A DNA stretch of 45,123 nucleotides from an uncultured Olsenella sp. (lineage in GTDB: Bacteria; Actinomycetota; Coriobacteriia; Coriobacteriales; Atopobiaceae). The DNA lies in NCBI GenBank assembly GCA_900314535.1, contig OMVT01000029.1, positions 1 to 45,123 of the forward strand. Direction: 5' to 3'. Positions within the stretch are counted from its first letter, which is position 1. Every line of letters begins with the position of its first letter. The translations under genes were made by a program, and so were the position numbers. This document shows, piece by piece, positions 1 through 4,407 of the stretch. Under the pieces are notes generated by a model. That model made no database searches and was not told where the DNA came from. It saw only the letters and a list, made by a program, of their open reading frames with translations.

Positions 1-250
<250 letters not shown>

Positions 251-324: not shown

Positions 325-831
325 CTATAGATTCGCGTTCTCCCGCATCACGGAGGAGCCCCGCTCGAGCGATATGACGCCTGTGCGGCACACCTCCAGG
401 ATCTCGAAATCACGCATGAGGTCGATGAAGTTGTCTATGCGCCGGGTGCCCCCGGCAATGCGGAACACGATGGAATCGCGGGTGTAGTCGACGATCTTGG
501 CACGGAATGCCTCGCCGGCATCGAGCACCTGCTGGCGGGTCGCATTGTCGTTTGCGACCTTCAGAAGCAGAAGCTCGCAGCTGATGGAATCCTCCGGGTC
601 GAACTCCTTGAAGGAGACGACATCGGGGAGCTTCGCGAGCTGGGCGACAAGCTGGCGCTTGGCCCTGTCCTCGCCCTCGAACTGCACGGTGATGCGGGAA
701 AGATCTTCTGTCTCGGTCTCGGAGACCGTGAGGCAGGTGATGTTGAACTGGCGGCGGCGGAACATGCTCGTGACACGGTTGAGCACGCCGTACTCGTTGC
801 GCACCATGATGGCAATGCTGTAGGTCTTCAT
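325..831 (-). CDS. ilvN: Acetolactate synthase small (regulatory) subunit
   Basis: 168 aa, the usual length for short IlvN/IlvH proteins. Residues 1-75 form an ACT domain (starts MKTYSIAIMVRNEYGVLNRV, where the family binds valine for feedback inhibition), followed by the C-terminal ALS regulatory domain. The family activates the IlvB catalytic subunit and confers sensitivity to branched-chain amino acids. The start is 4 nt past the ilvB stop, so translation is probably coupled and both subunits come from one message. Confidence 0.96.
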   Translation of the reverse strand: MKTYSIAIMVRNEYGVLNRVTSMFRRRQFNITCLTVSETETEDLSRITVQFEGEDRAKRQLVAQLAKLPDVVSFKEFDPEDSISCELLLLKVANDNATRQQVLDAGEAFRAKIVDYTRDSIVFRIAGGTRRIDNFIDLMRDFEILEVCRTGVISLERGSSVMRENANL

Positions 832-835
832 GATG

Positions 836-2533
836 CTATCGCCCCATCCTCTGCTTCACGTCGTCCATGTTCACGATGAGCTCGTCCATCGAGGCACCGA
901 TCTGGAGCACCGGCGTCACGAACTCGTCGATCCCTATCGGGCACTCGATGAGGACGGGTCCTGCCTCGGAGAAGGAAGCCTCGAAGGCACGGGAGAAGTC
1001 CTCAAGGGTCTCCGTGCGCGTTGCCTTGGCACCCATGCCGCGGGCAATGGCGCAGAAGTCTGCTCCCTTGTGGGAAAGCGTCGTCTCGGAGTAGCGCTGG
1101 TGCCTGAAGAGCGACTGCATCTGTCGCACCATGCCCAAGGTCCCGTTGTTCAGGAGCACGACCGTGACCGGAATGTCATGGTCGGCGGCTGTGATGGTCT
1201 CCGCCATGTCCATCGCAAAGGAGCCATCGCCCGTGATGAGAACCGAGCGGCACCCGGTGCCGAGAGCGGCGCCGATTGCGGCGCCGAAGCCGAAGCCCAT
1301 GGTCCCCAGGCCTCCTGAGGTGATGAGCTCCCGGGGATGCACGAACGTAAGGTACTGCGCGGCCCACATCTGGTGCTGCCCCACGTCGGTCACGACGGCA
1401 GACTCGTGCGGACGGATCCTGTCGATAGCAATCATGAGGTTCTTCGGGGTCATGCCGTCACGGTAGTCGTCGTAGCCCTTCTCCTCTGCCCTGAGCTCGC
1501 GCACCTTGCGCCCCCACGCCTCGTGCGTGTTGGGCTCGATGAGCGGCAGGAGCGCACGCAAGGTCTCCTCCACATCCCCCAGAAGCTCGACCTTGTCGTC
1601 CAGGGTCTTCGAGAGCTCCGAGGAGTCGATATCGATGCGCACGACCTTGCCGGAGGGACCGAACTTCGTGCGGTCCCCCGTCGCGCGGTCGTTGAAGCGC
1701 ACGCCGAGGGCGATCAGGCAGTCGGAGTCATTGAGCGCTTTCGTGCTGGCAAAGTGTCCATGCATGCCCTGCATGCCGAGGAAATTGGGAGTCCTCGTCG
1801 GGATGCCGGAGACACCCATGAGCGAGCAGCCGATGGGAGCAGAGATCCTCTTGGCAAGCTCTACGACCTCATCCCCCGCTCCATCTGCGACGACGCCTCC
1901 GCCAAAGTAGATGAAGGGGCGCTCGGCGCTGTTGATGGCACGAGCTGCTGCCTCGAGGTCAGCCGCATCGGGCACCATCTGCTGCGGCCTGAGCTTCACC
2001 TCGTCGTGCTCCAGAGGCTCTACGAGCTGGCGCTGGACATCGGAAGGGATGTCCACAAGGACAGGACCCTTCCTCCCGGAGTTTGCGAGCGCGAAGGCCT
2101 CGTGCACGATGTGCTCGAGCCTGTCTGCCGAGCGCACGAAGTAGTTGTGCTTCGTTATGGGCAACGTGACGCCGGTGATATCGAGCTCCTGGAAGGCGTC
2201 CGTGCCGATCATCTGGTTGCTCACGTTGCCGGTGATTGCGACAAGCGGGATGGAGTCGAGGTAGGCCGTGGCGATGCCGGTCACGAGATTCGTGGCACCC
2301 GGACCTGACGTGGCGATAACGACACCGCAGCGTCCTGTCGCCCTGGCATAGCCATCGGCAGCATGCGTGGCATGCTGCTCGTGCGTCGTCTCGATGTGGC
2401 GGATGCGGTCGCGCCTGTCGTAGAGTGCATCATATATATCAAGCACAGTGCCGCCGGGATAGCCGAATACGGTATTCACGCCCTCCTCGATGAGCGTCTC
2501 GATGAGGAGCTCCGCTCCTGTCATCTTCTCCAC
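836..2533 (-). CDS. ilvB: Acetolactate synthase large (catalytic) subunit
   Basis: 565 aa, full length. It has the three-domain TPP-enzyme layout: an N-terminal pyrimidine-binding domain with the catalytic Glu in the ETTHEQHA segment, a central domain, and a C-terminal pyrophosphate-binding domain with a GDGSF...NNG Mg/TPP motif. It condenses pyruvate with pyruvate or 2-ketobutyrate, the first common step to Val/Leu/Ile. The start is GTG: an AAGGAGG Shine-Dalgarno lies 8 nt upstream, whereas the in-frame ATG three codons later would be 17 nt away. It is 38 nt downstream of leuA and 4 nt upstream of ilvN. Confidence 0.96.
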   Translation of the reverse strand: MEKMTGAELLIETLIEEGVNTVFGYPGGTVLDIYDALYDRRDRIRHIETTHEQHATHAADGYARATGRCGVVIATSGPGATNLVTGIATAYLDSIPLVAITGNVSNQMIGTDAFQELDITGVTLPITKHNYFVRSADRLEHIVHEAFALANSGRKGPVLVDIPSDVQRQLVEPLEHDEVKLRPQQMVPDAADLEAAARAINSAERPFIYFGGGVVADGAGDEVVELAKRISAPIGCSLMGVSGIPTRTPNFLGMQGMHGHFASTKALNDSDCLIALGVRFNDRATGDRTKFGPSGKVVRIDIDSSELSKTLDDKVELLGDVEETLRALLPLIEPNTHEAWGRKVRELRAEEKGYDDYRDGMTPKNLMIAIDRIRPHESAVVTDVGQHQMWAAQYLTFVHPRELITSGGLGTMGFGFGAAIGAALGTGCRSVLITGDGSFAMDMAETITAADHDIPVTVVLLNNGTLGMVRQMQSLFRHQRYSETTLSHKGADFCAIARGMGAKATRTETLEDFSRAFEASFSEAGPVLIECPIGIDEFVTPVLQIGASMDELIVNMDDVKQRMGR

Positions 2534-2571: not shown

Positions 2572-4110
2572 CTACTTGCTGCCTTCGTTGGCGCGTGCCG
2601 TCTGGATCATGCGATTGATCGCATTGACATAGGCCTTTGCCGAGGACACGACGATATCGTTGTCGGCGCCACGGCCCGTGTAGATCTTGCCGGACTCGGA
2701 CTGGATGCGGACCGTGACCTCGCCGATAGCGTCGATGCCGCGCGTGACGGCCTTGACGACGAACTCCTGGAGGTCGCCGTGCATCGAGACGACCATGTCG
2801 ATTGCCTTGTAGGCGGCATCGACCGGGCCTGTGCCCGTGGCGCAGACGACGTGCTTCTCCCCTGCTTCGTCCATGATCGTGGCCGTGGCGGTAGGCACCA
2901 GCGGGTCGCCGCAGCTCACCTGCAGTGCATCGAGCGTGTAGACAGCCTTGATGTCGCGGTCGCGCTCCTGGACCATGGACTCGAGGTCCTCGTCGTAGAC
3001 TTCCTTCTTCTGGTCTGCGATCTCGAGGAAGCGCTGGTAGATGTCATCGAACTCCTCAGGCGCAAATGTGTAGCCGAGCTCGGCGAGACGATGCTTCAGC
3101 GCTGCGTGCCCGCTCCTCGCAGAGAGGATGATTTCCGATCCTGCGGCACCCACATCCTCGGGGTTGATGATCTCGTAGGTATCGCGGGCCTTGAGCACGC
3201 CGTCCTGGTGGATGCCGGAGGAGTGCGCAAAGGCATTGGCGCCGACGATGGCCTTGTTTGCCTGGACATTCATGCCCGTGATGCGGGACACCAGATGACT
3301 TGCACGCGTGAGCTCCTGCGTCACGATGTCCGTGTGGCCATCGAGCTCGTCGCCGTGCATCTTGAGCGCCATGACAACCTCTTCGAGGGCGGTGTTGCCG
3401 GCACGCTCGCCGAGGCCATTGATCGTGCACTCGACCTGCGTGGCGCCGTTCTTGACGCCAGCGAGCGCCAGCGCTGTTGCCATGCCCAGGTCGTTGTGCG
3501 TGTGCACGGAGATCGTGACGTTCTCGATGCCGCGGACATTGTCGGAGAGGCTCTTGATGCGAGCACCGAAGTCATCCGGCATGTTGTAGCCCGTCGTATC
3601 CGGAATGTTCACGACCGTGGCGCCGGCATCGACTGCTGCCTGGATGACGCGGATCAGGAAGTCCTGGTCGGCACGGCCTGCATCCTCTGCATAGAACTCG
3701 ACGTCGTCCACATACTGCTTTGCATACTTGACGCAGTGGATGGCACGCTCGATGCACTCGTCCTCCGTGATGCGGAGCTTCTCTGCGAGGTGCTGCGGCG
3801 AGACGCCGAGGCCAGTGTGGATGCGGGGGCGCTTGGCGGTCTTCAGGGCCTCTGCGGCACGGTCGATATCCTTGTCGACAGCGCGCGTGAGGCCGCATAC
3901 GACGCAGTCATCGCCTGCGAGGCGGCCGATCTCCTGCACGGACTTGAAGTCGCCCGGACTCGAAATCGGGAAGCCGGCCTCGATGACATCGACATGCATG
4001 CGGATGAGCTCCTGGGCAATCACAAGCTTCTCTTCCGTGTTCATGGATGCGCCGGGGGACTGCTCGCCGTCGCGGAGGGTGGTGTCGAAGATTGCAATCT
4101 TGCGGGTCAT
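2572..4110 (-). CDS. leuA: 2-isopropylmalate synthase
   Basis: 512 aa. The N-terminal HMGL-like TIM barrel begins [16 protein letters not shown] (metal-binding Asp and catalytic Arg). HTHNDLG and the remaining barrel motifs follow, then a linker and a C-terminal LeuA regulatory domain (about residues 370-500) that in the family mediates leucine feedback. It makes 2-isopropylmalate from acetyl-CoA and 2-ketoisovalerate, the first committed step to leucine. The ATG at 4110 has an AGGAG site 7 nt upstream; the ORF is open 13 codons further but those codons overlap the leader. First gene of leuA-ilvB-ilvN-ilvC, and preceded by an attenuator. Confidence 0.96.
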
Positions 4111-4149
4111 AGGATGGCTCCTCTCGTGTGCGGATGCACATTGATACAC

Positions 4150-4181
4150 AAAACGCCTGGCCCAGGAAACCTGGCAGGCGT
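4150..4181 (-). terminator. Attenuator terminator ahead of leuA
   Basis: On the minus strand CGCCTGCCAGG pairs with CCTGGGCCAGGCG (short internal bulge, TTT loop) and is followed by TTTT. It lies about 40 nt before the leuA start and about 100 nt after the leader-peptide stop, the position expected of the terminator arm in a transcription attenuator. Confidence 0.8.
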
Positions 4182-4278
4182 CGCAGAGAGTTCTATGTAA
4201 GGGTGGTGTGTGCGAGCGCCGATGCCTAGCTTTCTAGGAAGACAGGATCTAACGCGCTGGCTGTATATGTCTATACGC

Positions 4279-4371
4279 CTAGCGCGCGCTCGCTAGTAGG
4301 AGTACCGCAATGGAGCTGATGGCTACGCTCTGCGCAGCTTCAGAACCAATGTATGTCTTAATCTGAGACAC
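4279..4371 (-). CDS. Leader peptide of the leuA-ilvBNC operon
   Basis: A 30-codon ORF (GTG start, TAG stop) in the leuA leader. AAGGGAG sits 8 nt before the GTG. The C-terminal half reads VAISSIAVLLLASAR, so Val, Ile, Ile, Val and three consecutive Leu codons (CTC CTA CTA) occur just before the stop. CTA seems rare in the GC-rich genes here, which would make it sensitive to charged tRNA-Leu. Arrangement, codon content and the downstream hairpins match leader-peptide attenuation of branched-chain operons. The peptide itself is probably only a ribosome-position sensor. It is too short for ordinary gene calling. Confidence 0.72.
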   Translation of the reverse strand: MSQIKTYIGSEAAQSVAISSIAVLLLASAR

Positions 4372-4407
4372 TCTGGATACTCCCTTGGACTTGGCACCTC
4401 CCGGTGC

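Follow-up and report, generated by a model that had tools for sequence, protein, structure and literature searches.

The minus strand of the window, by which we mean the whole stretch of 45,123 nucleotides analysed, carries leuA, ilvB, ilvN and the start of ilvC in this order up to the contig end, and the locus raises the question of what the sequence ahead of leuA does for these genes. The leuA gene (2-isopropylmalate synthase, 2572..4110) has its ATG at 4110 and a Shine-Dalgarno region, GAGAGGAG, recognised from the sequence at 4118..4125. It is followed by ilvB (acetolactate synthase large subunit, 836..2533), ilvN (small subunit, 325..831) and the 5' end of ilvC (1..169, assigned from translation and synteny), which is cut by the contig end. 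The genome is that of a member of the Atopobiaceae, and by leuA it is closest to hRUG864 (95%) and Parafannyhessea umbonata (91%). From sequence comparison we consider it very probable that the region is a ribosome-mediated (leader-peptide) transcription attenuator, sensing charged tRNA-Leu and controlling leuA-ilvB-ilvN-ilvC.

The leader upstream of leuA

The leader ORF is found at 4279..4371 (minus strand, like all features below), runs from GTG to TAG over 30 sense codons and has the predicted peptide MSQIKTYIGSEAAQSVAISSIAVLLLASAR, with homologous Leu-rich leaders in relatives. Its Shine-Dalgarno sequence AGGGAG (4380..4385) lies 8 nt ahead of the GTG, and its branched-chain codons are, in order, Val GTA, Ile ATC, Ile ATT, Val GTA and Leu CTC, CTA, CTA. 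The three Leu control codons (4294..4302) end four codons before the stop; the window genes use CTA only rarely for Leu. The aligned ORFs of the four nearest relatives begin with ATG, 6-8 nt after an AAGGAG, and for this reason the GTG at 4371 is favoured over a longer, 49-codon GTG frame. The Shine-Dalgarno sequence, the start and the short ORF are all kept in five species, and translation of the ORF is predicted. A sigma-70 promoter scan upstream of the leader recognised none.

A sequence-only reading of this DNA had described the ORF with its Shine-Dalgarno sequence and Val, Ile and Leu codons, a hairpin at the stop codon and a terminator further on, and all of these are where it placed them. 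The hairpin (P2) has segment B, CGCGCTAGGC, on its 5' side, covering the ORF end and the stop (4277..4286), and segment C, GCCAGCGCG, on its 3' side (4253..4261). The terminator (4146..4181), about 98 nt past the leader stop, consists of a hairpin at 4181-4153 of -17.6 kcal/mol and a U-rich tail at 4152-4146, and reads ACGCCTGCCAGG-TTT-CCTGG-gc-CAGGCGT followed by TTTGTGT. It is imperfect, with a 2-nt bulge and a U-tail (UUUGUGU) interrupted by a G; a simple terminator scan of the leader missed it, probably because of the bulge, and shuffling the window's own leader yields a terminator of equal strength in 10% of cases. The complementarity from which the proposed switch had been built is also exact: the stop codon and the post-stop segment form TAGGCGT (4275..4281), the presumed antiterminator strand, and its AGGCGT at 4280-4275 matches ACGCCT at 4181-4176.

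The whole leader folds better than 100 of 100 shuffles (z -4.0). The ORF, with 3 Leu in its last 15 codons, is not significant by Leu content alone, and in the near-identical leader of hRUG864 (L002) the Leu content of the ORF is matched by 27 of 100 shuffles. The case therefore rests on comparison and conservation.

Leucine codons in the family

The comparison drew 132 distinct leuA upstream regions from named genomes and from whole-genome sequences of the family and order. A short Leu-rich ORF is present in 89 of them at a shuffle p of at most 5%, and in 70 at 1% or less. A few of the 89, among them L102, L105 and L106, derive from the 3' end of a gene lying upstream, and most of the remaining peptides end in ...LL..(A/S)AR* or ...LLLA*. 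The sequence-only reading had staked its claim on relatives sharing the ORF and its Leu codons, and most Atopobiaceae and Collinsella/Enorma do have such a Leu- and CTA-rich leader ahead of leuA, together with a stop-spanning hairpin and a terminator. The Leu-rich peptides recur across genera despite differing nucleotides.

In 41 non-redundant leaders Leu makes up 28.6% of the codons, as compared to 8.7% in six window genes, and CTA accounts for 100 of 233 Leu codons, as compared to 1 of 254 (Fisher p 4e-37). The enrichment is specific to the reading frame, as 100 CTA stand in frame and only 3 and 38 in the two remaining frames. An explanation by the CTAG hairpin motif does not hold, because 65 of the 100 in-frame CTA are not followed by G. 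In these 41 leaders the control codons for the end product are thus conserved as codons. Another codon string, CGA CTT ACG AGC or CTT ACG/ACC, was seen near the leader end, outside the GCGCGC motif, in L027, L168, L170, L173, L174, L177, L178, L162, L076 and L004. In the Eggerthellaceae loci L102, L104, L105 and L106, leuA is found behind other genes and without a Leu leader; the genes ahead of it include one with an ACT-domain-like C-terminus and, in L104, ilvBNC.

The sequence-only reading had predicted a response to leucine and other branched-chain amino acids, and here the two parts of the prediction fared differently. Across the sequences compared Leu is the general signal of these leaders. 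Ile and Val are not general but track the leaders of leuA-ilvBNC operons: the last 20 codons hold on average 3.6 Ile and Val codons where ilvB follows leuA and 0.8 otherwise (8 versus 50 leaders, p=4e-6). Among the genomes examined, the leuA-ilvBNC order is confined to Olsenella-type genera and the clades of the window and of P. umbonata, and since it requires only 3-4 changes on the leuA tree the association is suggestive and not proof. The geometry in the window also favours Leu, as a ribosome on the last CTA would cover GCGAGCGC, and one on the Val or Ile codons would not. A second branched-chain cluster was seen on contig C81 (L205 and L206), where an acetolactate-synthase-like ORF, an ilvA-like ORF, ilvD and leuC-like genes share one strand. 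The stretch read at this cluster showed no leader rich in Leu, Ile or Val.

Alternative pairings and the probable switch

In the 41 non-redundant leaders a strong hairpin with a U-tract lies between the ORF and leuA in 29 cases, as compared to 7.0 expected from dinucleotide shuffles, and an intrinsic terminator between the leader ORF and the first gene is thus a feature of the family, window included. Across the family, the sequence at the ORF end and stop (GCGCGCTAG) finds its partner in the downstream segment C. Own partners beat re-matched ones at every thinning (n=20-42), down to 20 leaders of less than 60% identity, and none of 20,000 permutations was as good. In Thermophilibacter-type leaders, C adjoins the terminator and is not within it. 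The post-stop strand and the 5' arm of the terminator are co-complementary as well, with p = 0.0000 (n=29), 0.0001 (18), 0.0002 (15) and 0.0019 (12) as related leaders were removed stepwise; in the ranking of this pairing hRUG864 comes first and the window fourth of 33. A pairing of the ORF end with the 5' arm of the terminator was rejected (co-complementarity p=0.24).

In Collinsella/Enorma the antiterminator is one interrupted helix that merges the pairings of the ORF end and of the post-stop strand, GAUGCGCG-GGGU-CUUC with GAAG-ACCC-CGCGCAUC. Of its cells, 94% are paired, both sides have changed in 5 of 16 pairs, and 0 of 500 shuffles were as good. The helix and the terminator are mutually exclusive because both use the same strand, and at the family level there is accordingly an antiterminator that excludes the terminator and shows covariation. 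Conserved Leu codons and stem switching were what the sequence-only reading had expected an alignment of leuA leaders to reveal; the first are present, and the second is supported by the co-complementarity and by the compensatory changes in Collinsella. A hairpin inside the Collinsella ORF (CCCTAGCGC:GCGCTAGGG) is present in most leaders and shows no covariation. Downstream of the terminator, about 30-90 nt before the CAGGAGG of leuA, a conserved anti-Shine-Dalgarno stretch, CCTCCTGC, was observed in L020, L021, L079, L082, L085, L088, L090, L094, L103 and other Collinsella/Enorma, and its sequence suggests that control has a further layer at translation.

The window belongs to a clade of five species (the window, hRUG864, L111, P. 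umbonata and L112), which share a 24-nt block, CTCCTACTAGCGAGCGCGCGCTAG, identical in four of them and one base off in L111, as well as segments C (YAGCGCG), D and E, while the surroundings drift. The block occurs once in the genome, and no second copy was found even when 3 mismatches were allowed. Segment 1, GCGAGCGC, lies inside the ORF, among its last four codons (4286..4293), pairs with D (P1) and has in the five species one change, which leaves a wobble. Segment D, GGCGCTCGCA, at 4211..4220, is invariant in the five species and can pair with either segment 1 or E. Segment E, TGCGACGCC, at 4177..4185, is the 5' arm of the terminator with its flank, and reads TGCGRCGYC in four species and GCGCGGCGTC in P. 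umbonata. The arrangement of ORF end, D and E is conserved throughout the clade, and the D:E pairing is kept in all five, with 8 of 8 pairs in four species and 7 of 8 in the fifth. The UGCG of E is outside the terminator stem and is nevertheless conserved, which the D:E pairing explains. Because segments 1, D and E are nearly invariant, the clade offers conservation without covariation. The terminator is poor on the P. umbonata side, and that of hRUG864 has a U6 tail. In L014, from the same genus as the window (G002), leuA was observed without leader or terminator. The 4.5-kb locus also holds matches to ilvB and ilvC, and its gene arrangement is therefore a different one.

What the sequences establish is that the ORF is present, conserved and biased in its codons, that the pairings exclude one another and that terminators are there. 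From these we infer that the ORF is translated, that ribosomes stall on it, in which direction the leader responds and which antiterminator dominates in this species. When leucine is plentiful, the ribosome would pass CTC-CTA-CTA and leave at the TAG. The ORF end would then fold back, segment 1 with D and B with C, leaving E free, and the terminator would end transcription about 35 nt ahead of leuA. When leucine is short, the ribosome would stall on the CTA codons with its footprint over segment 1, and the free D would pair with E (GGCG..CGCA with UGCG.CGCC). The exposed post-stop UAGGCGU may also pair with E; either way the terminator would be blocked and the operon read through.

Folding with masked ribosome positions shows D:E to be the usual early pairing of E and does not settle in which direction the switch works. 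With the ribosome modelled on the last CTA, four of the five species have E paired with D ahead of transcription of the terminator, and in most modelled states E is bound mainly to D as long as the terminator is incomplete. In stalled hRUG864, E is predicted to pair with the post-stop strand instead of D. In equilibrium folding without a ribosome, segment 1:D is not by itself favoured over D:E, and the switch therefore needs kinetic, co-transcriptional control.

The switch as originally proposed is itself a variant of attenuation, in which the post-stop AGGCGT:ACGCCT pairing would be the only antiterminator here and D merely part of a structural three-way junction. The family-wide co-complementarity speaks for this type of pairing, and so do 6 of 6 pairs in the window, 5 of 6 with one compensatory change in hRUG864, and its hold on E in the stalled hRUG864 transcript. 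The exact pairing stands in these two species only, being broken in the other three of the clade, the P. umbonata side included, whereas D and the UGCG flank show the conservation expected under D:E, and the stalled window transcript pairs E with D before its terminator is complete. We find this version rather unlikely, and think that D:E would be the main conserved antiterminator in the window clade, with the post-stop strand a second, younger or auxiliary one.

It is conceivable, and we propose it tentatively, that the window/Parafannyhessea clade uses a relay instead of the four segments known from textbooks. The stretch of codons that separates the Leu run from the stop would pair with D, some 65 nt further on, and the antiterminator would be D and not the strand beside the stop. 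One ancestral leader would then have diversified into several switch architectures, with an anti-Shine-Dalgarno hairpin of CCTCCTG and CAGGAGG added in Collinsella, some transcriptional and some possibly translational in addition.

Relation to known leaders

A known leader of the same gene and position is the LEU element, described for other Actinomycetota as a pseudoknotted leuA leader in which the Leu run pairs with the leuA Shine-Dalgarno sequence, acting on translation, perhaps protein-bound, and without terminator-based attenuation (Seliverstov et al. 2005, PMC1262725). It shares the Leu-rich leader ORF before leuA. The species of the window clade could also form 5 bp between CUCCU in the Leu run and AGGAG in the Shine-Dalgarno sequence, although these may be a by-product of CTC-CTA standing beside any AGGAG. 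The complementarity between Leu run and Shine-Dalgarno sequence is no better than that of re-matched partners (p=0.12, 41 leaders), so the base stem lacks comparative support here. Terminators are strongly enriched in our leaders and the switch ends in one, while the text on the LEU element names none, and the codon-level selection for CTA points to translation of the leader. That the leader of the window is a LEU element is improbable. The genomes listed in the study of that element include no member of the class Coriobacteriia.

A constitutive terminator or a structured RNA, such as an sRNA, with a chance ORF would fit the strong folding of the leader and the window ORF not being Leu-rich beyond chance. 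It would leave unexplained the in-frame enrichment of a codon nearly absent from the window genes, the Leu-rich peptides encoded by differing nucleotides across genera, and the leader amino acids following operon content, and it is very improbable. A T-box or metabolite riboswitch, suggested by the setting in an amino-acid operon of a Gram-positive bacterium, can practically be dismissed, as the window contains no T-box, riboswitch or known leader family at the Rfam gathering cut-off. Scanning the leader permissively (E<=5) gave one chance-level match, to an unrelated sRNA family on the opposite strand.

The leader-peptide attenuator would work like leuL of Salmonella and E. coli, with which it shares CUA-dominated, rare Leu control codons, alternative stem-loops, an intrinsic terminator and leuA as the first gene. 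Rare CUA control codons are described in PMC1183508 as a hallmark of the Salmonella leu attenuator, where changing CUA to CUG lowers sensitivity (Carter et al. 1986, cited there). Compared to leuL the present leader has another fold, an Ala-Ser-Ala-Arg tail, a stop-spanning GCGCGC hairpin, the second switch D:E and ilvBNC in the operon, and matches no Rfam leader family. The Corynebacterium ilvB-II motif (PMC10272879) and the ilvB1NC uORF of Mycobacterium tuberculosis (PMC13236596) are alike in having a branched-chain-rich uORF and overlapping terminator and antiterminator structures that control ilvBNC. Those leaders precede ilvB and have mixed branched-chain codons, whereas ours precedes leuA and is centred on Leu and CUA, with Ile and Val mainly where ilvBNC follows leuA.

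A literature search, incomplete in coverage and weak as evidence, found no earlier account of leuA attenuation in Coriobacteriia. Going by the comparisons above, what we describe is a new lineage of a known attenuator type with a clade-specific switch, and among the genomes examined it seems to be limited to Atopobiaceae and Coriobacteriaceae. It would place leader-peptide attenuation of leucine synthesis in Coriobacteriia, common bacteria of the gut and rumen, and contrast cleanly with the LEU element, for which the mechanism in other Actinobacteria is under dispute. The leaders would also form an evolutionary series in which the codons, Leu alone or Leu with Ile and Val, follow the genes behind leuA, and annotating them would provide points at which control of branched-chain amino acid synthesis in these organisms could be tested.
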